Positions 1 to 11,233 of a DNA stretch of 64,000 nucleotides are shown here, piece by piece. The notes under the pieces are model-generated. The model searched no databases. It saw only the letters and a program-made list of their open reading frames with translations, and had not been told where the DNA came from. Both the position numbers and the translations under genes were made by a program. Each line of letters starts with the position of its first letter. The first letter of the stretch is position 1. Source of the stretch: Pseudovibrio japonicus (GTDB lineage Bacteria > Pseudomonadota > Alphaproteobacteria > Rhizobiales > Stappiaceae); NCBI RefSeq assembly GCF_014651595.1, contig NZ_BMXE01000005.1:62001-126000 (forward strand), given 5' to 3'.

Positions 1-75
1 TCAGTTGGTCGTAGGTTGGGCGGAGCTACTTTGAGAGGTAACGTATTTCGCAGTAGGTCTGTAGAGATTGCCCTG
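1..75 (+). repeat. Partial copy C of the dispersed structured element
   Basis: This stretch aligns, with scattered substitutions, to positions about 439-512 of the element at 361-772, including the shared GGTAACGTATTTCGCAG core. Similarity stops abruptly at about position 75, where a different palindromic repeat begins. The left end is cut by the window edge, so the true extent is unknown. Confidence 0.75.
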
Positions 76-76
76 G

Positions 77-97
77 ATCCCTGATCAAGTCAGGGAT
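77..97. repeat. Short intergenic palindrome
   Basis: Perfect inverted repeat with arms ATCCCTGA and TCAGGGAT around a TCAAG centre. It resembles the CCCGGATCAAGTCCGGG-type intergenic repeats widespread in Alphaproteobacteria; that resemblance is from memory of the repeat class. No coding potential. Confidence 0.65.
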
Positions 98-198
98 GAC
101 GGCGGTAACGGAAGCGATACAATAAGAACCTCAACTACGTCATGCCGCACAAGCGCAGCGCGATGCGGTATCCAGAGCCAGCAATACAGGCATTAGAG

Positions 199-240
199 CG
201 TATTCCCGAAAAGCGGGTCCGGTTTTCGGAGAAGAATACG
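199..240. repeat. Nested palindromic intergenic repeat
   Basis: Outer arms CGTATTC/GAATACG enclose inner arms CCGAAAA/TTTTCGG, giving a 42-nt two-tier hairpin. The sequence resembles a palindromic repeat common between genes of Hyphomicrobiales-like genomes. It sits in a gene-free stretch made largely of repeats. Confidence 0.65.
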
Positions 241-360
241 TGTGAAAACAAACGCTTAGAGCTTGGCGCGTGAATTCATATGAACGCAGCATGCTCTAGA
301 AATCTTCGCCCTGTCCCTACAACACATTGCGTTCTAGCAAGAAGACTAATCCTTCTTGCC

Positions 361-772
361 AAAAACTTATCCCCCCACATCAAAACACAGGTCATACTTT
401 CTCCCATGCCTACGTTACGGGCTGCTGGTGGACCGTCCGCCAGTTGGGCGTAGGCTGGGTGGGGCTACTGTGGGAGGTAACGTATTTCGCAGCAGGTCCG
501 TGGAGGTTGCCCAAACGCCATGAGTGTTGGGGCGGGAGGATGCGCGGCCAAACCAGAGGGCGTCAGCACTGGGAGATATTCTGTAACAGGAGTGCCTTCT
601 CAAAGCGTCTTTTGGAGCTTGGCCATAGCCTCCTACAAAAACGCCCGGGCAAGGCGACAGCCAATGCCGAAGAAACTAATTTAACAAGTAGCGCAGGCAC
701 TGCCTGCTCGCCTTGCTCATCCCGTTCCTCGGGACACTCTGGTTCAACACTGCATGGATGCCATGCGGTGCT
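361..772 (+). repeat. Dispersed structured element, copy A
   Basis: About 412 bp that aligns almost end to end with the reverse complement of 10815-11233. Both copies begin at CAAAAACTTATCCCCC and end at GCCATGCGGTGCT. Inside are conserved hairpins: AGTGTTG (523-529) with CAGCACT (564-570), GCAGGCACTGCCTGC (693-707), CCCG/CGGG around 720-733 and GCATGG/CCATGC at 752-766. A long open frame crosses it but is judged not to be a gene. It ends 65 bp upstream of the GNAT gene, in the same orientation. Function unknown; a structured RNA or a small non-autonomous mobile element are the main possibilities. Confidence 0.8.
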
Positions 773-837
773 CTTCGTGTTTGCTGGATACTTTTTGCAG
801 GGGCTATGCTAGGTTTTTGCCAAAATATGGGGGGACT

Positions 838-1287
838 ATGCAGAGGTTTGAAATCAGAGCGGCGCGGCATGATGAGTTGCCGGAAGTTGCGCGCATGTAT
901 CGGCATTCACGGGATCAGTGCCTTTCGTTTTTACCAAAACTGCATACACCGGCAGAAGACCTTTGGTTTTTTCAGAATATTGTTTTTAAGAGCAATGAAC
1001 TGACAATAGTCATAGGAGATGAGCAAATCATCGGTATGATGGCCACCAAAGATGACTGGATAGAACAGCTTTATCTGGATCCGCGACACCTGCGGAAAGG
1101 CATTGGCTCCAAGCTCTTGGACCTGGCAAAAGCTCAATCTTCCGGGAATCTGAAGCTTATGTGCTTTGTTGAGAATACGGATGCCAGAGTATTTTACGAA
1201 GCGCATGGCTTTAAGGAAGTGAAGCGGACAAGCGGTTCAGAGAATGAAGAAGGCGCACCGGATATCTTGTATGAGTGGCAGGCCTAG
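838..1287 (+). CDS. GNAT family N-acetyltransferase
   Basis: A 149-residue protein of the Gcn5-related acetyltransferase fold, expected to move an acetyl group from acetyl-CoA to an amine in the cytoplasm; the acceptor cannot be told. The acetyl-CoA loop is visible in the middle as an LDPRHLRKGIGSKLL segment (R/Q-x-x-G-x-G/A type), followed by the family's N-x-x-A-x-x-FYEAHGF motif near the C-terminus. The ATG at 838 was chosen over the upstream in-frame ATG at 754 because a GGGGGG ribosome site lies just before it and the domain starts there; the longer form would extend back into the repeat. It stands alone directly after repeat copy A, so it may be an acquired accessory gene. Confidence 0.85.
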   Translation: MQRFEIRAARHDELPEVARMYRHSRDQCLSFLPKLHTPAEDLWFFQNIVFKSNELTIVIGDEQIIGMMATKDDWIEQLYLDPRHLRKGIGSKLLDLAKAQSSGNLKLMCFVENTDARVFYEAHGFKEVKRTSGSENEEGAPDILYEWQA

Positions 1288-1458
1288 TCTGCCCAGCAAG
1301 GTTGATGGTTCCGTGTGTTGGTCAAAGGCGGAAGCGGGATAATACCCCCAAAATATCAGGGGGCATATACGGTGAGTTCCGTCTAGCACAGCATGACTCT
1401 GAGTGGCATTGTTCAACGTAGATGTACTCTAGGACCATGTGTTGGGAGGCGCACGAGA

Positions 1459-2151
1459 ATGCTGAACACTGCAAGTTATGCCAATTACAAGATCACGCAT
1501 ACGGATGAGACTTTTACGGATTGGCTTGTGAAATCCGCAGGGCCCAAGTGGGATGCGGCAGTCAATCATCCATTCACGGTTGCGATTGGCGATGACACGG
1601 TCAGTTCCGAGGCGGTTAAGCGCTATCTGCTGGAGGACTATCACTATATCCTGGATCTTGCGTCTGCGCTTGGCTTTCTCATTGCCAAAGCACCAACAAT
1701 GACGGCAAAAGCGCATTTGGCAAAGTTTGTTGATGGATTGACCTCGAATGAACTCAGTTTTTTCCAGCGGGCTTTCAAGGAGTTGGGTGTTGAACCCGAG
1801 GTCTACGAGAACACGGAACCGAACTCCGTTACTCGTGCGATTGGGTCAATGCTTCTGTCCACGTCAGGTAAGGGCCATTACATTGATGGTATGGCTGCGC
1901 TGCTGGCTACAGAGTGGATCTATCGTGAATGGGGACATCGTGAAGCTGCGAAGCCGACCCCCAAGCGCCCCTACCTTGCTGAATGGGTTGAGTTTCTGGC
2001 TTGTGATGAGTTTGGTGAGTTCATAGAGTGGCTCAAGCAGGAAGTGAATGTGCATGGCGAAGAAGAGCGGGCGCAACGCCAGAGCGAGATATCAGAAAGC
2101 TTCACTTACATGTGCAAGTTGGAGGCGGATTTCTTTGATATGGTGAGCTGA
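1459..2151 (+). CDS. TenA-like (TENA/THI-4 family) protein
   Basis: A 230-residue all-helical protein of the TenA/PqqC superfamily. True TenA enzymes hydrolyse aminopyrimidines in thiamine salvage. Family features are the YLLEDYHYILDLA helix near residues 55-67, a TSNELSFFQRAFKELG segment and an ALLATEWIYREWG segment. In classical TenA the last segment carries the catalytic cysteine (LLPC type); here that position is Thr/Ala, so this is a Cys-less TenA-like protein and its reaction is uncertain. ATG 1459 was preferred to 1393 because a GGGAGG site precedes it with normal spacing. No thiamine riboswitch was found upstream and the neighbours are not thiamine genes. Confidence 0.8.
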   Translation: MLNTASYANYKITHTDETFTDWLVKSAGPKWDAAVNHPFTVAIGDDTVSSEAVKRYLLEDYHYILDLASALGFLIAKAPTMTAKAHLAKFVDGLTSNELSFFQRAFKELGVEPEVYENTEPNSVTRAIGSMLLSTSGKGHYIDGMAALLATEWIYREWGHREAAKPTPKRPYLAEWVEFLACDEFGEFIEWLKQEVNVHGEEERAQRQSEISESFTYMCKLEADFFDMVS

Positions 2152-2176
2152 TTAACAGGCCATATTTTTGGTGCGA

Positions 2177-2208
2177 AATGCTCTCTGTTTTGCAGGGAGC
2201 ATTTTTTT
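2177..2208 (+). terminator. Rho-independent terminator of the TenA-like gene
   Basis: Stem AATGCTCTCTG / CAGGGAGCATT with one G-U pair and a short loop, followed by a run of seven T. It lies 26 bp after the TenA-like stop codon. Confidence 0.85.
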
Positions 2209-2520
2209 CCAGTTTAGTGAGTCCTGACCCAGACCTTTCGCCTAAAATCAGGGGGCAAGTACACGTTTCCATGTATCTGCTCTGTGATTTTGCCCGATAA
2301 TTGAAAGAGAGCGCAAACTGTTCCTAAACTAGATTTTGTTAACCTATCCCTTCTGGGAAGTATTTTTTATTCAATTGGTGTTTTTTGATGATGTTTTCTA
2401 ATGCTGGCTGCTTTTAGTAGTTTATCTGACTTAAATGGGCTTTTTGCCCGCTTGATTGTAGAAAATTTTCCTCATTCTGGTAAAACACGGTCAACAAAGA
2501 AACACGAATAAGGAATAGAT
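2209..2520 (+). promoter_or_regulatory. AT-rich leader of the amino-acid ABC operon
   Basis: About 310 bp without a gene. It is strongly AT-rich, contains a perfect GAAAATTTTC palindrome at 2461-2470 and ends with an AGGAA ribosome site six bases before the ATG at 2521. It presumably carries the operon promoter, but no convincing -35/-10 pair could be chosen. Confidence 0.4.
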
Positions 2521-3267
2521 ATGTTCTCTCGTTCTACTGTTGCTGCCCTTGCCCTTCTCGTGGCTGTTCCTGCTCAGGCTGAAACAATCCGCGTGGGCAT
2601 GTCTGGTGGGTATTTCCCATTCACTTTCGTCAAGCAGGATGTTCTGCAGGGCTTTGAAGTTGACGTTGCTCGTGCAATTGGTGAGCAGACCGGTGATGAC
2701 ATCGAATTCGTCACCATGAGCTTCTCCGGTTTGGTTGGTGCTCTGGAAGCTGACCGTATTGACACTATTGCGAACCAGATCACGATTACACCTGAGCGTG
2801 AAGCGAAGTACGTCTTCTCCCAACCGTACGTTTACGATGGTGCGCAGGTTGTTACTAAAAAAGGCAACGACGACGTCAATGGCGTTGAAGACCTGAAAGG
2901 CAGAAGCGTTGCGGTTAACCTCGGTTCCAACTTTGAAGACCTGATGCAGGATCTGCCATACGCGAATGAAATCGACATCCGCACCTATGAAAGCAACCTG
3001 GCTCAGGATACTGCTCTTGGCCGTGTTGATGCGTTTGTGATGGACCGCGTTAGTGCTACTCAGCTGATCAAAGAAACGCCACTGCCGCTGGAGCTGGCTG
3101 GTGCACCGTTCTCTGAAATTCGTAACGCAATGCCGTTCCGCAATGATGAAGAAGGTAAAGCTTTGGCTGCTAAGGTAGATGCTGCTATCACTGAGCTGAA
3201 GGCTTCTGGCAAGCTTGCCGAGATCTCCGACAAGTGGTTTGGTGCGGACATCACTAAAGCTGACTAA
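2521..3267 (+). CDS. Amino-acid ABC transporter, periplasmic binding protein
   Basis: A 248-residue family 3 solute-binding protein. Residues 1-20 form a Sec signal peptide with an AQA cleavage site, followed by the mature start ETIRVGMSGGYFPFTF. The family motif G.F.E.VDVARAIG appears as GFEVDVARAIG, and the second lobe has a DLKGRSVAVNLGSNFE segment like that of cystine/polar amino-acid binders. It would capture an amino acid in the periplasm and hand it to the permease encoded next. The three genes form an operon, with a 37-bp gap before the permease. The ligand cannot be fixed from sequence; cystine or an S-alkyl cysteine derivative is a guess based on resemblance to TcyA-type proteins and on the neighbouring M20 enzyme. 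Confidence 0.9.
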   Translation: MFSRSTVAALALLVAVPAQAETIRVGMSGGYFPFTFVKQDVLQGFEVDVARAIGEQTGDDIEFVTMSFSGLVGALEADRIDTIANQITITPEREAKYVFSQPYVYDGAQVVTKKGNDDVNGVEDLKGRSVAVNLGSNFEDLMQDLPYANEIDIRTYESNLAQDTALGRVDAFVMDRVSATQLIKETPLPLELAGAPFSEIRNAMPFRNDEEGKALAAKVDAAITELKASGKLAEISDKWFGADITKAD

Positions 3268-3304
3268 GCCGTCTGTTTTTAAATAACTATAATAAGACCT
3301 GAAT

Positions 3305-3979
3305 ATGCGCGCCTTAAATCTGGATTATATGCTCGGCCTTGTGCCGGTCCTCTTAAAGTACCTACCCCTAACTTTGGGTATGGCAAGTTTGTCCATGATT
3401 TTGGCGCTCATACTTGCATCGCTGTTTGCGATTATCCGTGTGGTTCGCTTCCCAGTTCTGGATGCGGCCACGCGGCTCTTTATCAGCTTCTTCCGTGGCA
3501 CACCGCTGCTGGTGCAGCTGTTTCTGTTTTACTACGGCCTGCCGCAGTTGTTCTCGTTTCTCACCGCGATTGACGGGGTTACGGCAGCGATTATTGGTCT
3601 GACGCTGCACTTTTCCGCCTATATGGCAGAGAGTATTCGTGCTGCGATCCTCGGCGTTGACCGCAGCCAGTGGGAAGCGGCAAAGTCGATCGGAATGTCG
3701 ACCGGTCAGATGATGCGTCGGATTATTCTGCCGCAAGCGGCGCGTGTTGCTGCGCCGACTCTGATCAACTACTTCATTGACCTGATCAAGAGCACCAGTC
3801 TGGCCTTTACACTAGGTGTGACCGAGTTGATGGGCGCTGCGCAGAAAGAAGCTGCGGGAAGCTTCCTGTACTTCGAGACATTTATTGTTGTTGCAGTGAT
3901 CTATTGGGCTGTGGTCGAAAGCCTCGCTTTCATCCAGACCCGTATTGAAAACCGACTTTCAAAGGCTGTTTCCAGATGA
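3305..3979 (+). CDS. Amino-acid ABC transporter permease (HisM family)
   Basis: A 224-residue inner-membrane protein with about five hydrophobic segments. The family signature FRGTPLLVQLFLFYYGLPQ is at about residues 63-81, and the EAA cytoplasmic loop reads EAAKSIGMSTGQMMRRIILPQA at about 123-144, which docks on the ATPase. One permease gene implies a homodimer. The stop overlaps the start of the ATP-binding subunit by four bases (ATGA), indicating translational coupling. Confidence 0.92.
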   Translation: MRALNLDYMLGLVPVLLKYLPLTLGMASLSMILALILASLFAIIRVVRFPVLDAATRLFISFFRGTPLLVQLFLFYYGLPQLFSFLTAIDGVTAAIIGLTLHFSAYMAESIRAAILGVDRSQWEAAKSIGMSTGQMMRRIILPQAARVAAPTLINYFIDLIKSTSLAFTLGVTELMGAAQKEAAGSFLYFETFIVVAVIYWAVVESLAFIQTRIENRLSKAVSR

Positions 3980-4707
3980 TCCAGATCCGCGGGCTCACAA
4001 AAATCTATAATGGTGTTCCTGTGTTGAACGGGATCGACCTGGATATCGAAAAAGGCGAACGTATCGCCATCATCGGACCGTCCGGAACCGGTAAGTCGAC
4101 CTTGCTGCGCTGTCTCAACTTTCTTGAGACGCCTGAAAAGGGCGAATACATTCTTGATGGCAAAACCATCGATGTTCAGAAGGCTAATGCGGCTCAGATC
4201 AAAGAGATGCGTCTGAGAACGGCGTTTATCTTTCAGAACTATGCGCTATTTGCCAACAAAACTGCTCGCGAGAACATTGCTGAAGGGCTGATTACTGTTC
4301 GTGGTGAGCCCAAAGAGGCTGCGTTTGAGCGTTCGGATGCGATCCTCCGGGATATCGGCATGGCAGAAAAAGCTGATGCCTATCCGGCTTCCCTGTCGGG
4401 CGGTCAGCAGCAGCGTGTGGGTATTGGCCGGGCTATGGCCAGCGACGCAGAGCTGATGCTGGTAGATGAGCCGACCTCAGCGCTTGATCCAGAGTGGGTG
4501 GATGAAGTGCTGCAGTTGCTGACGCGGGTAGCGCAGGCTCATCAGACCATGCTGATCGTGACCCATGAGATGGCGTTTGCAAAAGAGATTGCCGACCGTG
4601 TTCTGTTCATGGAAGGTGGCCGGATCGTTGAGCAGGGTCCGCCTGAAAAGATCTTTACCAGTCCGGATGACCCGAGGACCCGTAGCTTCCTGCGCAAAGT
4701 CCTATAA
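3976..4707 (+). CDS. Amino-acid ABC transporter, ATP-binding subunit
   Basis: A 243-residue ABC ATPase of the polar amino-acid type. Walker A is GPSGTGKST, the Q-loop is IFQNYALF, the signature is LSGGQQQRV, Walker B is LMLVDEPTSALD and the switch histidine is in VTHEM. It powers import through the permease encoded just upstream. It is the last gene of the operon and is followed directly by a strong hairpin terminator shared with the convergent dehydratase gene. Confidence 0.94.
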   Translation: MIQIRGLTKIYNGVPVLNGIDLDIEKGERIAIIGPSGTGKSTLLRCLNFLETPEKGEYILDGKTIDVQKANAAQIKEMRLRTAFIFQNYALFANKTARENIAEGLITVRGEPKEAAFERSDAILRDIGMAEKADAYPASLSGGQQQRVGIGRAMASDAELMLVDEPTSALDPEWVDEVLQLLTRVAQAHQTMLIVTHEMAFAKEIADRVLFMEGGRIVEQGPPEKIFTSPDDPRTRSFLRKVL

Positions 4708-4715
4708 GGAATTTC

Positions 4716-4752
4716 GAAAGCGGTACCTCTTGATGGAAGTACCGCTTTTCTT
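4716..4752. terminator. Bidirectional terminator
   Basis: Stem AAAGCGGTAC (4717-4726) with GTACCGCTTT (4739-4748), with T residues following on the plus strand and A residues preceding it. It lies between the ABC operon and the convergent dehydratase gene and can serve both. Confidence 0.8.
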
Positions 4753-5703
4753 TTATCGGCCTTTCAGGGCATCATTGACCTGAATGAGTTCTGCATTGCC
4801 GCCGCAGAGTAGGACACCGACGCGCTCGCCGTCTGCTGGCTTGTAGGCGCCGGAAATGAGCGCTGCCAATGCGGTGGCTCCGCCGGGTTCCACAACCAGC
4901 TGCATCTCTCTCCAGAGGCAGCGTTGTGCGGCCAGGATGGCGTCGTCTTCCACCAGAACGGATTGTGCAATATGCTTGCTTGCCACCTCAAAGGGGTATG
5001 TGCCGCACCGCTTTGCACCAAGTGCATTGGCTGCAATGCTGTTGAGCTCCACGTCTACCGGCTCTCCGGCTTTGAGGGCTGCGTGCAGGGAGCATGAACC
5101 AGTTGGCTCCACGGCGATAATCTTGGTTGGGGTATCGGCGTAGTAACTTGCAATGCCTGCGGCAAGGCCGCCGCCACCAACAGCGACGAGGATAGTATTC
5201 AGATCAGGGTTTTGCTCTGCCCACTCCAGCGCCACTGTGCCCTGACCATTGATTGTATCAATCGCGTCGTAGGGGTGAATATCAATTGCGCCGGTCTGCG
5301 CTTGGTATTGAGAGCAAAGAGCTGCAGCGTCTGCATAAGTTGCGCCTTCTATGTGAAGATCAGCCCCAAAGCTGCGGATCTTGTCGACCTTTGCCGGGTT
5401 TGAGATCTCAGGCACGAAGATCTTGGCAGTGAGCCCGAGTGCATGAGCTGCACACGCGACTGCGGCACCGTGGTTTCCGCCAGATGCGGCTGTAACTCCA
5501 GCCTCGGGAATACGGCTGTTCAGTAGTGAATTAAAAGCTCCACGGGCTTTGAAAGAGCCAGAGTGTTGCAGATGCTCCAGTTTCAAGGAAATGGAGTATT
5601 TCAAGCCGAAGGTTCCGTTACCGCTCACAATACACGGGGTCTTGCGAATGTGTTTCTGGATCCGTTCGTAAGTGAATTCAATTTGTTGCTTCGATATTTG
5701 CAC
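4753..5703 (-). CDS. PLP-dependent threonine/serine dehydratase family protein
   Basis: A 316-residue fold-type II PLP enzyme. The Schiff-base lysine is in the SGSFKARGA motif near residue 52, the phosphate/substrate loop is ASGGNHG near 94-100, and the glycine-rich PLP phosphate loop is VGGGGLAAG near 173-181. The family removes ammonia from threonine, serine or related amino acids to give 2-oxo acids; EutB-type dehydratases of ectoine breakdown are close relatives. There is no C-terminal ACT domain, so a catabolic rather than biosynthetic role is more likely. It lies downstream of the M20 amidohydrolase on the same strand (75-bp gap) and faces the amino-acid importer, so the three units may handle one substrate. 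That link is inferred. Confidence 0.85.
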   Translation of the reverse strand: MQISKQQIEFTYERIQKHIRKTPCIVSGNGTFGLKYSISLKLEHLQHSGSFKARGAFNSLLNSRIPEAGVTAASGGNHGAAVACAAHALGLTAKIFVPEISNPAKVDKIRSFGADLHIEGATYADAAALCSQYQAQTGAIDIHPYDAIDTINGQGTVALEWAEQNPDLNTILVAVGGGGLAAGIASYYADTPTKIIAVEPTGSCSLHAALKAGEPVDVELNSIAANALGAKRCGTYPFEVASKHIAQSVLVEDDAILAAQRCLWREMQLVVEPGGATALAALISGAYKPADGERVGVLLCGGNAELIQVNDALKGR

Positions 5704-5732
5704 GCGAATGGCCTAATTTATTTTTTGATATT

Positions 5733-5757
5733 GAGAACCTCGGGAAACCTCGAGGCT
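5733..5757 (-). other. Intercistronic hairpin
   Basis: CCTCG/CGAGG arms with flanking GAG/CTC pairing lie between the M20 amidohydrolase and the dehydratase genes. There is no clear T-run, so it may be an mRNA stability or processing structure rather than a terminator. Confidence 0.35.
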
Positions 5758-5778
5758 CTGGAACTTGTGGCAATGACC

Positions 5779-6951
5779 TCAGGTCGCAGGCATTGCGGTT
5801 TCAACCAATTTGATGAAATAGGAGCAACCGTAGGGTATTACTTCGTCGTTGAAGTCATATTCTGGGTGATGTAGGCCAGCGCTATCGCCGTTTCCGAGGA
5901 AGACAAAAGCCCCAGGCTTTTCTTCCAGATAATAGGAGAAGTCTTCGGCTCCCATGATTGGTGCTAGGTTCTTGTCTACCTTATCTATGCTACCCGAGAT
6001 TTCTGTAGCAATTCGTGTTGCGAAGTTGGTTTGCTCCGGGTGATTAACTGTGGTCGGGTAACCCTCTGAAAACTCCAGCTCCACGTCCGCGCCGTTTGCT
6101 GCACATATGCCTTCAACGACTTGCTTTATGCGTTCGGCAGCCTGTTTGCGGGTTCCTTTGGCGAGCGTTCGGATTGTTCCGCCAAGTTTTACGGTCTCCG
6201 GAATGATGTTGTATGCGGTACCGGCCTGAAAGAAGGTCACGGAAACTACGATGGATTGCAGCGGATCGACATTTCGGGATGCGATTGATTGCAAGGCGGA
6301 TACGATTTGTGAGCCAACAATAATCGGATCGATTGTCTTGTGTGGGTAAGCAGCGTGACCTCCCTTACCTTTCACGGTGATGGTAAACTCATCGGAAGAG
6401 GCCATTAATGCACCGGGCCGGGTCCCAAAGTGGTTGAGCGGTGTGCCTGGCTGGTTGTGCAGGCCGTAAATTTCGTCAACGTGCCAGCGTGTGAACAGGC
6501 CGTCGTCCATCATTGTTTTGGCGCCCCCACCACCTTCTTCAGCCGGTTGGAAAATGAGGATAACGGTACCGTCAAAATTACGGGTTTCAGTCAGGTATTT
6601 TGCGGTTCCCAGCAGCATGGCGGTGTGCCCGTCGTGGCCACATGCGTGCATGGCGCCTTCGTTTTTGGACGCATACTCCTTGCCGGTTTCCTCGGTCATG
6701 GGAAGGGCGTCCATGTCCGCACGGAGGGCAATGGATTTTCCGGTACCGCCGTTGCGGCCTTTGATGACACCGACGACGCCTGTGCGGCCTACGCCTGTTG
6801 TGACTTCATCAACGCCGATCTCAGTAAGGATTTCGGCTACTTTTGCTGATGTGCGGTGGGTTTCATAGAGAACTTCGGGATATTCGTGAAAATCGCGGCG
6901 CCAAGCGGTGATTTCATCATGCATTTCTGCAAGCCGATTAATGGTTGGCAT
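5779..6951 (-). CDS. M20D family amidohydrolase (N-acyl amino-acid hydrolase type)
   Basis: A 390-residue metallopeptidase-fold hydrolase related to hippurate hydrolase and N-acyl-L-amino-acid amidohydrolases. Visible metal and catalytic elements are RADMDALP near residue 79, the HACGHDGHTAMLLG metal motif near 106-119, FQPAEEGGGGA near 139-149 and a dimerisation-domain HAAYPH segment near 203. It would cleave an acyl group from an N-acylated amino acid in the cytoplasm. It is first in a leftward pair with the PLP dehydratase, which could act on the freed amino acid. M20D members also process S-alkyl-N-acetylcysteine and diaminobutyrate derivatives, so the substrate is open. Confidence 0.87.
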   Translation of the reverse strand: MPTINRLAEMHDEITAWRRDFHEYPEVLYETHRTSAKVAEILTEIGVDEVTTGVGRTGVVGVIKGRNGGTGKSIALRADMDALPMTEETGKEYASKNEGAMHACGHDGHTAMLLGTAKYLTETRNFDGTVILIFQPAEEGGGGAKTMMDDGLFTRWHVDEIYGLHNQPGTPLNHFGTRPGALMASSDEFTITVKGKGGHAAYPHKTIDPIIVGSQIVSALQSIASRNVDPLQSIVVSVTFFQAGTAYNIIPETVKLGGTIRTLAKGTRKQAAERIKQVVEGICAANGADVELEFSEGYPTTVNHPEQTNFATRIATEISGSIDKVDKNLAPIMGAEDFSYYLEEKPGAFVFLGNGDSAGLHHPEYDFNDEVIPYGCSYFIKLVETAMPAT

Positions 6952-7122
6952 CAGACTGCTCCCTCAAATACTTCGGATTTTTATTGCTATGAAATAATGC
7001 GTCTCACTTTGGCCCAGTGCAGTGAAATATTGCAAGAGCAAATCAATCGCAAAAAGGTCAGTTGAGTAAATTTAAATGGACTGCTCGTCGCGTTTGTTTA
7101 CCAACCCCAAAACTGCTTCATC

Positions 7123-7143
7123 ACGACAGAGTATAGCTGTCGT
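7123..7143. promoter_or_regulatory. Inverted repeat upstream of the 7191 gene
   Basis: Arms ACGACAG and CTGTCGT are separated by seven bases, 48 bp before the start of the small hypothetical gene. It could be an operator or an RNA hairpin. Confidence 0.35.
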
Positions 7144-7190
7144 CAGAACACATATTGCACTTGGTTCAACTTTAGCAACAGCGAGGCAGT

Positions 7191-7556
7191 ATGGCGATTT
7201 ATCTGAGTGTTTTTCGGAATGTCACTGAAGAGAAGCAACACTGGATGTTTCTTAACAAAGCCAATCGATATGTCAGCCTTTTGCCTGCTCGCTCTGAGTT
7301 TGAAACCGGGCCTTTTGACTTCCGCCGGAATGCCTCAATCAATCTGCTTGTGAACGGTGGCTTGTACGGTACATCGCTGCGTTACAACTCGTTGCGTGAC
7401 AGCTGGAGCCTTTGGCCTTTGACCAGTGACTTTTCGCTGCAGGTAGAAAAGCGCACCGTTGTTGTCGAATGTGCTCTGACCACCCCTTATGCTGCTGACG
7501 CGAATGTGGCCTCTCTTACTCGGTTTTATGAGGAAATGAGCAGGCCGGGCGGTTGA
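7191..7556 (+). CDS. Hypothetical protein, 121 aa
   Basis: No family is recognised. The protein has no signal peptide or membrane segment, is rich in aromatic and polar residues, and contains an NLLVNGGLYGTSLRYNSLRDSW stretch that may form a beta-rich core. A modest GCGAGG ribosome site precedes the ATG. It is judged real because it fills the space between two genes without overlap and converges on the methyltransferase gene with a 16-bp gap. It could still be a chance open frame. Confidence 0.55.
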   Translation: MAIYLSVFRNVTEEKQHWMFLNKANRYVSLLPARSEFETGPFDFRRNASINLLVNGGLYGTSLRYNSLRDSWSLWPLTSDFSLQVEKRTVVVECALTTPYAADANVASLTRFYEEMSRPGG

Positions 7557-7572
7557 GCCTTGCTGCTGGTGG

Positions 7573-8226
7573 TTACGCGAAGGCGTAGACGGCGGTCTTT
7601 TTTGTCTCGTTGTCTTCCAGCTCTCGCTGAACCGGAATTTCGTAGGTTTGCAGGTGTGTGAGTCGTGATGCGGGGAAGTAAGAGCGCTGTGGATCGCCAA
7701 CCAGTACGGGAACCGGTTTGATTTGGCGGTTTGCATCAAGCCAACCTAATACACTTGCTGTCATCTCCGGATCATAAAAGACGTCACCGCAACAGATCAG
7801 GTCATATTGGGCAAGAGAGCTTTTAAGAAGGTCTTGTGTGGTGACTTCAATTGTAACCTGATTCAGGTCTGCGTTGATAAGTGCAGAATCTGCAGCAAAC
7901 AGGTCAATGTCGGCAGCGACGGCAGAGGCTGCGCCAGCTTTCATGGCTGCGATGGCGACGAGGCCGGAGCCGCTGGCAAAGTCAAGGATGTGCTTGCCTC
8001 TGACCGTTTCCGGGTTGTCCAGAATGTAGCGTGCCAGTGCTTGCCCGCCTGCCCATGCAAATGCCCAGAAGGGGGAGGGAACACCGAGCTTTTCCAGCTC
8101 CTCTTCTCCCATACGCCACAGATCGACGCTTTCGTCGGCCAGGTGGAGGGAGAGGGACGGCGCATGTGGGACAGGGTGAATGCGTGTCTGTTCCAGAATA
8201 AAGCTGCGCCGATCCGTAATTGCCAT
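7573..8226 (-). CDS. METTL20-like protein methyltransferase
   Basis: A 217-residue class I SAM-dependent methyltransferase of the COG3897 group. The SAM-binding motif I reads ILDFASGSGLVAIAA near residues 79-93, motif II is AVAADID, and the CCGDVFYD post-motif is near 145-152. The PFWAFAWAGGQALARYI segment before motif I is typical of ETFbeta-lysine methyltransferases (METTL20) and their bacterial relatives, so methylation of electron-transfer flavoprotein lysines is the best guess. It directly follows the EVE-domain gene in the leftward cluster with a 6-bp gap, so the two are probably co-translated. Confidence 0.8.
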   Translation of the reverse strand: MAITDRRSFILEQTRIHPVPHAPSLSLHLADESVDLWRMGEEELEKLGVPSPFWAFAWAGGQALARYILDNPETVRGKHILDFASGSGLVAIAAMKAGAASAVAADIDLFAADSALINADLNQVTIEVTTQDLLKSSLAQYDLICCGDVFYDPEMTASVLGWLDANRQIKPVPVLVGDPQRSYFPASRLTHLQTYEIPVQRELEDNETKKTAVYAFA

Positions 8227-8232
8227 AGCAGA

Positions 8233-8673
8233 TCAGACCTCGGAAGGGTCCATGCCTGCCATCTCCAGAACCACAGCCCATTCTTCTGGCTTGACCGGCT
8301 GAACGGACAGGCGCATGGAGGTTACTAGAGCCATGTCGGAGAGGCGTTCCTCGGCCTTGACCTGCGCCAACGTGACTGTCTGCGGCAGGTCTTTAACGGC
8401 TTTGATATCAACGCATTCCCAGCGCGGATCGTCGGTTGTGGAATCCGGATGCACCAAGGCACACACTTCTACAATGCCGACGACTTCCTTGCCGATATTG
8501 GAGTGATAGAAGAAGCCGCGGTCGCCGATTTTCATATCGCGCATGAAGTTGCGGGCCTGATAGTTGCGTATGCCGTCCCACTCTTCGCCTTCTTCGCCCT
8601 TGGCTTTTTGTTGTTCCCAAGACCATTTGTTAGGTTCGGATTTGAACAGCCAGTATTGCAACGCTTCCTCCAT
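8233..8673 (-). CDS. EVE domain protein
   Basis: A 146-residue protein made of a single EVE domain (PUA-like fold), a family that binds modified bases in DNA or RNA. It begins with the characteristic YWLFKSEPNKWSWE and continues with WDGIRNYQARNFMRDMKIGD, the aromatic cage-forming region, and GFFYHSN. The ATG at 8673 was chosen because the conserved domain begins there; an upstream in-frame start at 8727 adds 18 non-conserved residues. It sits between YciI and the METTL20-like gene in a leftward group also holding gpsA and tsaD, a grouping common in alphaproteobacteria. A pseudoknot-like arrangement lies 40-100 bases upstream. Confidence 0.9.
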   Translation of the reverse strand: MEEALQYWLFKSEPNKWSWEQQKAKGEEGEEWDGIRNYQARNFMRDMKIGDRGFFYHSNIGKEVVGIVEVCALVHPDSTTDDPRWECVDIKAVKDLPQTVTLAQVKAEERLSDMALVTSMRLSVQPVKPEEWAVVLEMAGMDPSEV

Positions 8674-8712
8674 GTAAACTGTATGTGTGTTTTGATCGAA
8701 GTGATCGAGTCG

Positions 8713-8772
8713 ATGTTTCGGGAACACACAGTAAATGGAGCACCAGCTTTTCGAAACATGGCGTGTGCTCCA
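8713..8772 (-). promoter_or_regulatory. Pseudoknot-like structure upstream of the EVE gene
   Basis: Two perfect 8-bp inverted repeats interleave. ATGTTTCG (8713-8720) pairs with CGAAACAT (8752-8759), and TGGAGCAC (8736-8743) pairs with GTGCTCCA (8765-8772). The arm order 1-2-1'-2' is that of a pseudoknot, or of two mutually exclusive hairpins. It lies in the gap between yciI and the EVE gene, in the likely leader of the latter. Confidence 0.45.
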
Positions 8773-8808
8773 GTTTAGATATGTTGTAAAACGTAACTTA
8801 CAGCAAAA

Positions 8809-9099
8809 TTACATTTCCGGGTTCTTTAATACCCAGTTCCATGGGCGGATCTCAACAGATTCAAACAGGCCTGCGAGAGCGTATGGGTCTTCGTTCGCCA
8901 CTGCCAGTGCTTCGTCGCGGTTTGCAGCTTCAATAATGACCAGCGAACCGGTTGGGGACACAAGATCATCACACATGAATGGACCAGCACCTTTCAGCCG
9001 ATCACCAAGACCGTTCAGGAAGTTGAGGTGCTCTTCGCGGGTCTTCTGACGAAGCTCTACCGAATGGGGCTTGTCTGTGCAGATGAGAGCGTACAGCAT
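8809..9099 (-). CDS. YciI family protein
   Basis: A 96-residue protein of the YciI family (ferredoxin-like, dimeric alpha-beta barrel fold). It starts MLYALICTDKPHSVELRQKTREEHLNFL, with the conserved R..TR..HL..L pattern, and has the conserved GSLVIIEAANRDEALAVANEDPYALAGLF segment with the family's DP motif. The catalytic role of these proteins is not established. It lies downstream of gpsA on the same strand (85-bp gap holding a weak hairpin) and upstream of the EVE gene. Confidence 0.88.
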   Translation of the reverse strand: MLYALICTDKPHSVELRQKTREEHLNFLNGLGDRLKGAGPFMCDDLVSPTGSLVIIEAANRDEALAVANEDPYALAGLFESVEIRPWNWVLKNPEM

Positions 9100-9133
9100 A
9101 TTGGATACTCCAGTAGCGGGATTTCAACCCAAC

Positions 9134-9159
9134 CTTTAAAACCCTGATTTCTAATCAGG
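9134..9159 (-). terminator. Weak terminator after gpsA
   Basis: Stem CCTGATT / AATCAGG with a 3-base loop, followed on the minus strand by a GTTTTAAA tract. It lies 26 bp after the gpsA stop, so it may lower but not abolish read-through into yciI. Confidence 0.5.
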
Positions 9160-9184
9160 TAAATCTGACTTTATGTGGATTCTG

Positions 9185-10195
9185 TTAGGGGTGGGTCTCT
9201 CGTTTGAGGGGGCGCGTCATTAAGTCGCTTAGTGCTTGTGCGACATCGATCTTACCGGCCACAATCTGAGAAACCGCTCTGGCAATTGGCATTTCGACGC
9301 CGTGTTTGTCGGCCAAGTCTACCGCGATATTGGCTGAGTGTGCGCCCTCTGCAAGCTTTTGGCCCGGTGCGACGAGCTCTTCCGGTTTTCTGCCCTGACC
9401 GATCTTGAGGCCGAACGCGAAGTTGCGTGACTGTGTAGAGGAACAGCTCAGTACGAGATCGCCCAGACCGGACAGACCGGTGAGGGTTTCACTTCTTGCG
9501 TTCAATGCCATGCCGAGACGTGTTAGTTCTGCAAAACCACGTGCGGTGAGGGCTGCCTGTGCGCTGGCGCCGAGGCCGTAGCCGATGGCAGCGCCACATG
9601 CGATGGCCAGAACGTTCTTGAGAGCACCGCCGATCTGGACGCCGATGAGGTCATCGGTTGCGTAGGGGCGGAAACTGTTAGACGCCAATGCTGCGGAAAG
9701 CTGATCTGCGACTGCGCCATCTTCCGCTGCGATTGTCACGGCAGTGGGCAGGCCTTTGGTCACATCGCTCGCGAAGCTTGGGCCGGACAGGGCTGCTGGA
9801 ATTGCGTCTGGTGCGACGGACTTGATGATTTCGGAAAGCAATCGGCCAGTCTTTTGCTCGATGCCCTTCGCGCAGAGCACAATGGGCGTTTCCGGTTTGA
9901 GAAACGGTCTGATTGCCTCGGTCATTGCGCGGGTTGTCTGTGCTGGTGTGACGAGCAGCAGAGCGTCGGCGTCTCTGACAGCTTCTTCCAGGCTATCGGT
10001 TGCCGTGATCTGCTCTGTCCACTGGATGCCGGGCAGGTATTTCGGATTTTGCTTGCTGGTGTTGATTGCGGTGACAGTCTCCGCATCACGCGCCCATATG
10101 ATGGCGTCACGACCTGCTCTTGCAGCTGCCAGAGCGAGCGCAGTTCCCCAAGATCCTCCGCCAATTACAGCGATCTTGTTCAGAGCAGTGGTCAT
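9185..10195 (-). CDS. gpsA: NAD(P)-dependent glycerol-3-phosphate dehydrogenase
   Basis: A 336-residue cytoplasmic enzyme that reduces dihydroxyacetone phosphate to sn-glycerol 3-phosphate for phospholipid synthesis. The N-terminal dinucleotide motif is IAVIGGGSWGTALALAAA (residues 8-25). The substrate domain has LCAKGIEQKTGRLLSE, LSGPSFASDVTKGLPTAV and the signature IGGALKNVLAIACGAAIGYGLG, whose lysine is the catalytic residue of the family. Length is normal. The Nudix gene lies 10 bp upstream on the same strand, and tsaD is further upstream beyond repeat copy B. Confidence 0.95.
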   Translation of the reverse strand: MTTALNKIAVIGGGSWGTALALAAARAGRDAIIWARDAETVTAINTSKQNPKYLPGIQWTEQITATDSLEEAVRDADALLLVTPAQTTRAMTEAIRPFLKPETPIVLCAKGIEQKTGRLLSEIIKSVAPDAIPAALSGPSFASDVTKGLPTAVTIAAEDGAVADQLSAALASNSFRPYATDDLIGVQIGGALKNVLAIACGAAIGYGLGASAQAALTARGFAELTRLGMALNARSETLTGLSGLGDLVLSCSSTQSRNFAFGLKIGQGRKPEELVAPGQKLAEGAHSANIAVDLADKHGVEMPIARAVSQIVAGKIDVAQALSDLMTRPLKRETHP

Positions 10196-10205
10196 GTTGT
10201 TTTCC

Positions 10206-10688
10206 TTATCGGATAATGTTCAATCGTTCACAGAGCTGTTCGAGAGGGAGACCGAACCCGCCTAGCATTGTTAAGCTGGACTTAGTTGTGTTGTCTGCCA
10301 AATCAACCCAGAGGAAGCGAAAGAGTATGGGATCTCCACCGTCATTTGGGCTCATTTCGTAATGATCCCATGTTTGCTTCGCCTTATGGGTGACCTTGAC
10401 GTGAAAGAAAGCGCTACGATGTAGTTCCTGACCCTCTGTTCGGTCATCTTCATAAAGGTACTCACGCTTGTCAAACTGTTCCAGCGCACCGGTCACTGCC
10501 AGGCCGGTTTCTTCTTCAAACTCGCGCTTTGCGGCAATGAGATAACTTTCGCCGGGGTCCACCGTTCCACCAGGTACCTGGAACTCTCCTGAAAGGTCTG
10601 TTTCCGGTTCCTTGAATACGAGGAGGTGTGTGCCGCAGGTCATGTAGACGTAAGCTTTGTGCCGAGGCTGTAGTGCTGTTTTTTCCAT
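10206..10688 (-). CDS. Nudix hydrolase
   Basis: A 160-residue Nudix protein. The Nudix box is complete: G-x5-E-x7-REF-EEE-x-GL, spanning GTVDPGESYLIAAKREFEEE at about residues 41-60. The family cleaves nucleoside diphosphates linked to another moiety; the substrate here is unknown. It sits between tsaD and gpsA, which are close neighbours in many alphaproteobacteria, and repeat copy B lies 126 bp upstream of its start in the same orientation. The initiation region has no obvious ribosome site. Together this suggests a gene inserted into a conserved cluster. Confidence 0.88.
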   Translation of the reverse strand: MEKTALQPRHKAYVYMTCGTHLLVFKEPETDLSGEFQVPGGTVDPGESYLIAAKREFEEETGLAVTGALEQFDKREYLYEDDRTEGQELHRSAFFHVKVTHKAKQTWDHYEMSPNDGGDPILFRFLWVDLADNTTKSSLTMLGGFGLPLEQLCERLNIIR

Positions 10689-10814
10689 GAGTCAATCAAC
10701 GCAATGCTTTGAATATTTGGCGGATGTTATGCGGAGGACTTTGTCTCAGGCAAGGCGTGAAGCGGTTTTGTACATGATAAGCAGCAAGACGTTGGTACTA
10801 TTGAAACGCCGTTT

Positions 10815-11233
10815 AGCACCGCATGGCATTCCATGCAGTGTTTGACCAAGATTTCCCGAGGAACGGGATGGGCAAGGCGAGCAGGCAGTGCCTGCGCTAC
10901 TTTTTAGTTTAGTTTCTTCGGCATTGGCTGTCGCCTTGCCCGGACGTTTTTGTAGGAGGCTATGGCCAAGCTCCAATAGGCGCTTTGAGAAGGTGATCCC
11001 GACTGATGCAGGTACCTCCCAGTGTTGACGCCCTTTGGTTTGGCCGCGCATCCGCCCGCCCCAACACTGTTGGCGTTTGGGCAACCTCCACGGACCTGCT
11101 GCGAAATACGTTACCCTCCACAGTAGCCCCATCCAGCTCGCACCAGCTTGAGGGACGTTCCCCCAAACTGCCCGTTGCATGAGCTTGATACACAGTTTGC
11201 ACGTGTCTTGGGGGAGGGGGATAAGTTTTTGAC
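10815..11233 (-). repeat. Dispersed structured element, copy B
   Basis: About 419 bp on the minus strand, aligning with copy A (361-772) from the CAAAAACTTATCCCCC start to the GCCATGCGGTGCT end. A run of about 60 bases around 10910-10970 differs from copy A at one position only. The hairpins are kept: AGTGTTG/CAACACT arms (plus-strand 11062-11068 and 11021-11027), the GCAGGCAGTGCCTGC palindrome (10881-10895) and the GCATGG/CCATGC hairpin at the 3' end. It lies between the tsaD terminator and the Nudix gene. A 165-codon open frame crosses it but is not supported as a gene. Confidence 0.8.

Follow-up and report, generated by a model that had tools for sequence, protein, structure and literature searches.

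The large ornate RNAs OLE, ROOL and GOLLD extend over several hundred nucleotides (nt), adopt an intricate fold and contain no protein reading frame; these families are represented in Rfam and their hosts differ from Pseudovibrio. Dispersed DNA elements of modular build are also found between genes, such as RIME and similar mosaic repeats of Hyphomicrobiales, which are short (about 100 bp) and palindromic. To our knowledge it is rare for a bacterium to maintain an RNA gene in many copies, apart from the genes for ribosomal RNA (rRNA) and transfer RNA (tRNA). Copies of rRNA genes are kept alike by gene conversion and concerted evolution, according to two reports (PMC8022953, PMC6053082). RNA-only multimers have been described for large ornate RNAs (PMC12286853), and mobile or repeat RNA candidates of a discovery pipeline often occur with transposases, integrases, nucleases or helicases, as stated in PMC11109978. 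Here we describe a dispersed, structured element of Pseudovibrio japonicus, of which two full copies (A and B) and one truncated copy (C) lie in a stretch of 64,000 bases (G000:C5:62001-126000; in the following the window) of a 4.96-Mb genome of 24 contigs (G000). We infer that A, B and C are members of a multi-copy family of large non-coding RNA genes whose products would act in trans at high dose, a reading to which we assign a probability of about two in three.

Like OLE, ROOL and GOLLD, the predicted Pseudovibrio RNA is several hundred nt long with an intricate predicted fold and without a protein frame, but the family shows no Rfam match to them and is present in many dispersed copies per genome that undergo concerted evolution. 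Its copies are homogenised as are those of multi-copy rRNA operons, whereas they are not rRNA, differ more from each other, with values down to about 60% when types are compared, and swap their entire middle domains. Dispersal, intergenic location and modular build are shared with RIME. In contrast, the Pseudovibrio unit possesses a promoter-like block, a covarying RNA of about 345–465 nt and a terminal hairpin, a distinction drawn from the general description of RIME and not from an alignment. A structured motif in multiple copies per genome is also a feature of the mobile and repeat candidates of PMC11109978. Yet among the 72 open reading frames (ORFs) scanned as nearest neighbours of 36 copies (18 from the P. 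japonicus genome, 14 from a second genus of the family and 4 from the low-copy genomes G006 and G015), just three approach such an association, namely a DEAD helicase, a GIY-YIG protein and a UvrB fragment. The family was not described in the literature searched, which comprised titles and starts of abstracts and covered few subscription articles. About 19 copies of one putative gene for a large structured RNA are unusual for a bacterium. A strongly covarying RNA of this size with up to 27 dispersed, homogenised copies per genome would imply one of two things: an RNA machine that depends on dose, or an RNA-based element whose spread involved no obvious enzyme. Both readings are testable, since Pseudovibrio strains are cultured; at least one study with rRNA-depleted RNA-seq exists for the genus, on Pseudovibrio brasiliensis Ab134 (PMC11796379).

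Copies A (361-783, plus strand) and B (11230 to about 10800, minus strand) form a collinear end-to-end alignment with both edges in common. In a blastn search of the whole genome B matched A with 84% identity at positions 6-418 of a 426-base query (window 355-780; E 5.9e-123). Thus alignment, blastn and covariance models confirmed the common boundaries given in a preliminary description of this DNA, with edges refined to the positions above. A total of 27 blastn matches to A were obtained in the genome and grouped as 18 full copies and C; nine of the full copies are A-like, while the other nine have the same two ends and another middle. Independently of blastn, a covariance model of the 5′ domain (R2) also revealed 19 copies. 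On A, model R2 matched 405-504 (101.7 bits) and model R1 matched 641-735 (105.6 bits); the corresponding matches on B are 11187-11087 (90.6 bits) and 10947-10853 (105.3 bits). R1 gave two weak opposite-strand matches at the places of A and B (23.5 and 19.7 bits) because its stems are partly palindromic. The partial copy C, which had been noticed before at 1-75 (plus strand), was also verified: it is a 3′-truncated copy with the 5′ domain only, matched by R2 at 1-65 (43.2 bits, the match being cut by the window edge at the 5′ side). In the contig sequence its 5′ motif is found beyond the window edge at G000:C5:61928, which is 73 bases ahead of position 1, and its body ends at position 75, where another short repeat (gatccctgatcaagtcagggatgac) directly follows.

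The full copies have a common layout, consisting of the upstream block AAAACTTATYCCC (0–2 mismatches), a −10-like hexamer at near-fixed distance, a structured segment of about 345–465 nt and a terminal hairpin. In copy A the block (AAAACTTATCCCCC) is located at 362-375 and the hexamer CATACT at 393-398 on the plus strand; the RNA is predicted to start at about 405 and to end at about 775. The 5′ domain (405-504) comprises stem P1 with an inner hairpin and a stem with a GUAACG loop, both matching R2 and formed by covarying helices. It is followed by the middle and by the 3′ domain (641-735; GCCCGGGCAAGGCG ... CGCCTTGC with a CCCG hairpin), which is conserved in alignment A3. The terminal hairpin read from the sequence at 748-770 is terminator-like, with a T-rich tail at 771-783. 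Copy B on the minus strand carries its block (AAAAACTTATCCCC) at 11217-11230 (genome pattern match C5:73216-73228), the hexamer CAAACT, which is among the hexamers of the spacing survey, at 11194-11199, and at 10817-10840 the same terminal hairpin as A in alignment A1. The fold of the family is the same in outline, with P1 and its inner hairpin, the GUAACG-loop stem, the middle, the 3′ domain (GCAAGGCG...CGCCTTGC), the CCCG hairpin and the terminal hairpin with T-rich tail. Inspection by eye further revealed a GNRA-capped hairpin in the middle of several copies.

By means of the upstream motif and the 3′ core, 104 entries (89 unique) were extracted from loci of 14 Pseudovibrio genomes. Since the block was part of this selection, its conservation (0–2 mismatches in all 104 entries, none in 60) follows from the extraction. 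The hexamer was not a selection criterion, and 78 of the 88 distinct copies have their best hexamer at 28–29 nt, counted from the start of AACTTAT. Furthermore, AAACTTATYCCCC has 19 exact matches in the P. japonicus genome, 15 of them at copies, and the copies of the second genus, which were found by the RNA model alone, have a matching layout and T-rich tails after their hairpins, as judged by eye. Block, hexamer and terminal hairpin suggest that the copies are transcribed. The distances from block to 3′ core fall into three groups of about 258–294, 312–326 and 353–379 nt, so the middle is exchangeable and occurs in at least three length types. One place of the 3′ core (L045/L117) is not preceded by the upstream motif. 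At another locus (L278, region of G000:C4:330147) the exact upstream block and a hexamer, TATTCT, occur at the same distance, with no RNA body behind them and ahead of a gene that reads by eye as glutamyl-tRNA synthetase; this block is either a more general promoter type or a remnant.

Covariation was analysed in alignment A2, which contains 32 Pseudovibrio copies chosen from the 89 to differ. In the 5′ domain 95.6% of the cells were paired and 20 of 30 pairs showed two-sided changes, and none of 500 shuffles reached any of the five measures. When the partner was moved by 1–3 columns, pairing fell to 34–53% (best 52.7%). Alignment A5, with 28 rows from Pseudovibrio and the second genus, gave 93.9% paired cells and two-sided changes in 25 of 30 pairs, with no value as high in 500 shuffles. 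It was derived from a 40-row set by leaving out L050, L032, L034, L083, L099, L148, L169, L179, L189 and L180 as well as L185 and L177, the last two being contig-end loci with badly set rows. The shuffle control leaves the relatedness of the copies in, and the slide control removes it in part. Within Pseudovibrio just 2 of the 17 pairs of the 3′ domain have two-sided changes, its variation being too low to be informative, and the second genus often has GCGGGGCG/CGCCCCGC by eye where Pseudovibrio has GCAAGGCG/CGCCTTGC. A mutual-information screen of the MAFFT alignment, where spurious pairs also arise from type differences in the middle, revealed a long-range pair between the 5′ and the 3′ domain (columns 96-319; GC 70, AT 11, GU 6 and TC 2 of the 89 copies). 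In the 89-copy alignment the column pairs 432-441 and 434-439 of the terminal hairpin covary as well. Two-sided compensatory changes, including G–U pairs, over long helices therefore point to selection on an RNA.

Reading frames are not common to the copies: a stop-free stretch of at least 130 codons is present in just three of the 18 full copies of P. japonicus, namely A, B and one on the other strand. A dead protein gene was rejected as an explanation, as the frames of A and B (161 and 165 amino acids) have no Pfam match and are not shared. Comparison of the whole window with Rfam 15 (4227 families) at the gathering score yielded two tRNAs only, none of them in the copies, and permissive Rfam scans of window positions 1-1500 and 17 loci yielded no credible match inside any copy. 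The sole permissive match inside a copy, a microRNA in L188, is at chance level (23.9 bits with a gathering score of 53, E 1.1). A duplicate of RNase P RNA was also rejected, since this RNA has a single locus elsewhere in the genome.

A strict pattern search over genomes of 84,980 species returned 58 stretches, all from Pseudovibrio; it may omit records near the window's own and is not a census. Model R2, applied with stricter filters to 87 genomes of the family Stappiaceae in the Hyphomicrobiales, matched in 27 of them: 14 of 16 in the window's genus with 1–27 matches each, and 13 of 45 in the second genus (g6) with 1–3 matches each, some of them weak. Within Pseudovibrio five species (G006, G007, G008, G014, G015) have 0–2 matches and eight others 17–27. 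Model R3 matched seven of 397 genomes of the order, all in Pseudovibrio or the second genus, and among 385 genomes of the class the window's genome alone. Nine of the 397 genomes of the order were matched by R1; its matches in G409 and G357, which belong to other families, were discarded as weak, situated in apparent coding sequence and lacking the 5′ domain. Weak relatives may be missed in the order and class searches because the scoring was limited to 10 candidates per genome. Searches of plasmid and phage collections gave no match to A, one of the searches being for an exact pattern, and a phage or plasmid element was rejected.

The sites of the element were compared between sister species. 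Of the 21 fetched copies of G003 (from a total of 27 matches), 19 have a syntenic counterpart among the 23 fetched copies of G005 (also from 27); both flanks support 17 of these and one flank the other two, and L090 and L091 were unmatched. The sites are thus old and mostly shared between species, and current mobility was not seen. The nine A-type copies of P. japonicus form one clade in the tree, although for eight of their nine sites at least one neighbour identifies a counterpart in G001, G003 or G005. A paralog from the same genome is closer than the syntenic copy in 44 of the 45 syntenic comparisons made, many of which are backed by one neighbour only and which are not independent of each other. 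Between G003 and G005, the best match in G005 is the syntenic one for 14 of the 19 copies and a non-syntenic one for five, and in the pair L298/L302 the bodies are 69% identical between flanks of about 94% identity. Closer paralogs at shared sites thus indicate concerted evolution. Gene conversion, or replacement at the same site, would explain the divergence of bodies at these sites, and we infer that conversion rather than repeated insertion swaps the bodies. In a genome of the second genus (G053; L171, L182) near-identical bodies are found at two sites with similar sequence just upstream too (by eye); accordingly, duplication or conversion continues in this genus. Another second-genus genome has two same-orientation model matches about 650 bp apart, one of them weak with 44.6 bits (G050:C13:167969-168713; L184, L190).

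The genes following A and B, at 838 and 10688, encode a GNAT and a Nudix protein, as the preliminary description had stated and Pfam verified. It had also held that a small accessory gene of the same orientation stands behind each full copy. This did not extend to the copies in general. In a survey of 78 copies from seven genomes, carried out with a simple longest-ORF caller, the downstream gene is co-directional in 43 cases (7 of 18 in P. japonicus). The genes after the 18 full copies of this genome form an ordinary assortment of two GNATs, Nudix, NnrS, a histidine kinase, a CoA transferase, SfsA, DapB, an aminotransferase, a sugar transporter, a DEAD helicase, MutS, DUF4265, CreA, a pyridine-nucleotide oxidoreductase and three without a Pfam match; those upstream are likewise mixed and ordinary by Pfam. 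No association with a consistent downstream gene emerged among the tabulated copies. Thus the view of a dispersed structured family with constant ends was borne out, but the link to accessory genes was not. The upstream gene is co-directional in 54 of the 78 copies, so copies tend to sit behind the 3′ end of a gene. Among the 72 neighbours of the 36 copies no transposase, integrase, reverse transcriptase or TnpB/IscB was found, in agreement with the earlier statement on transposases and integrases, and the suggested RNA-guided type of element gained no support; a nuclease acting from elsewhere was not searched for. Four of the 72 neighbours are GNATs, and the GIY-YIG protein beside L178 is a single case. 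Around the copies of the second genus and of G006/G015 most ORFs have no Pfam match and may not be genes; the remainder is ordinary.

The interval between tsaD and the Nudix gene holds a copy in G000, G001, G002, G003, G005, G009 and G011; in three of these genomes (G002, G005 and G011) tsaD is separated from the copy by additional sequence that is apparently another gene. G012 has the Nudix gene and the copy in the fetched locus but another gene upstream, and G013 has a 5′-deleted remnant at this site. No copy was matched by blastn with the region of B at the tsaD loci of G004, G006, G007, G008, G014 and G015. In G010 tsaD and the Nudix gene are present without a copy between them; the Nudix gene is therefore independent of the element and not its cargo. 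Together with the mixed, ordinary neighbours and their orientation, this led us to reject the idea of mobile cargo genes. In G006 and G015, species with two matches each, GNAT genes lie upstream of L167 and L163, respectively, and point away from them, and the intervening DNA looks alike by eye; this place may be the ancestral site.

We propose that each full copy would be an independent transcription unit of promoter-like block, RNA of about 345–465 nt and terminal hairpin. The RNA would consist of a 5′ domain, an exchangeable middle and a conserved 3′ domain, with a long-range helix tying the 5′ to the 3′ domain. As the genus evolved, the copies would have become dispersed along the chromosome and then mostly stayed put, and gene conversion would keep swapping their bodies as in rRNA genes. 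The RNA may act in trans as an abundant structural or ribonucleoprotein RNA, with its dose set by copy number and the neighbours not controlled. Trans action is suggested by the absence of a rule for neighbours, and high dose by copy number and concerted evolution. More tentatively, and at less than even odds, the family may constitute a new class of structural RNA that is abundant, is encoded by many copies and forms a lineage-specific machine of RNA, or of RNA and protein. Its genes would resemble rRNA genes in their behaviour: tens of dispersed copies, one type of promoter in common, exchangeable middles and gene conversion, so far in Pseudovibrio and one further genus of the family. Several observations weigh against a trans-acting RNA gene family as outlined here. 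Neither end of copy A is recognised by generic scans for sigma-70 promoters and terminators. G008 and G014 gave no match by either search, and the RNA is therefore not essential for the genus. The pairing counts omit decayed copies such as C and the G013 remnant, as copies were gathered by an intact upstream block. The data do not bear out the idea of promoters remaining at their sites as conversion alters the bodies behind them: the syntenic copy has a mean percentile of 0.70 by promoter spacer and of 0.71 by body, and in L302 the promoter has changed along with the body. Finally, the copies were dispersed as whole units whose ends are constant, a pattern that ordinary gene duplication does not easily yield and that fits a mobile element.

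A non-autonomous mobile element of MITE-like (miniature inverted-repeat transposable element) or retro-element-like kind, which would spread by its structured RNA using enzymes provided in trans and which expanded in Pseudovibrio and is now mostly fixed, is an unlikely but serious alternative. Besides the constant ends, it agrees with the tsaD site of G010 without the element, with the other repeats adjoining copies and with the rise from 0–2 to 17–27 matches per species, which suggests, although read without a species tree, spread within the genus. Such spread needs some transposition with constant ends and is the strongest point for this alternative; to this extent the possible mobility raised in the preliminary description stands, while the sites shared by G003 and G005 speak against movement at present. 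Further points against it are the lack of transposition enzymes among the scanned neighbours, the absence from plasmid and phage collections and the degree to which structure is kept in the 32 copies of A2. Terminal inverted repeats were not apparent by inspection, and no inverted pair of at least 40 nt was found within a copy, shorter ones and target duplications not having been searched. RVT_1 was detected in six of 16 genomes and in none of G001, G002, G003 and G005, which have 19–27 RNA matches; a reverse transcriptase therefore seems not to be required. That the element is instead a DNA-level repeat, for instance a recombination or chromosome-organising site, would suit its dispersal between genes and the exchange between copies seen as concerted evolution. 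Compensatory changes including G–U over long helices and the conserved promoter-like block make this improbable. Still less probable is a cis-acting leader, riboswitch or attenuator of the next gene: A and B each precede a co-directional gene and the structure is conserved, but this reading is largely refuted by the orientation of the downstream genes, their functions are mixed, and the terminal hairpin stands before the gene. Nothing was found in favour of an origin as the remnant of a known insertion sequence or as a tRNA-derived element, two outcomes that the preliminary description had named as refuting it, nor in favour of a known RNA or a decayed protein gene; with no Rfam match at the gathering score in the window copies, RNase P RNA at its single locus elsewhere and no Pfam match for the frames of A and B, this origin has almost no probability left.

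Other repeats were noticed in the course of the analysis. G010 contains 20 reverse transcriptase matches on contigs C1 and C4-C8, several with equal scores, as in a recent retroelement burst. Short repeats of the type gatccctgatcaagtcagggatgac / CCGGGATCCAT occur at window 75-110 and in the flanks of L002, L003 and L007, adjoining several copies; the gaps that hold copies therefore collect repeats. Between C and A, window 186-338 gave a sub-threshold match to the Brucella small RNA CI27 (RF02600; 36.1 bits compared to a gathering score of 59.8). A weaker match of this type is present in locus L116 of G001 and a similar stretch by eye beside L025, and the CI27-like stretch is probably another dispersed repeat.

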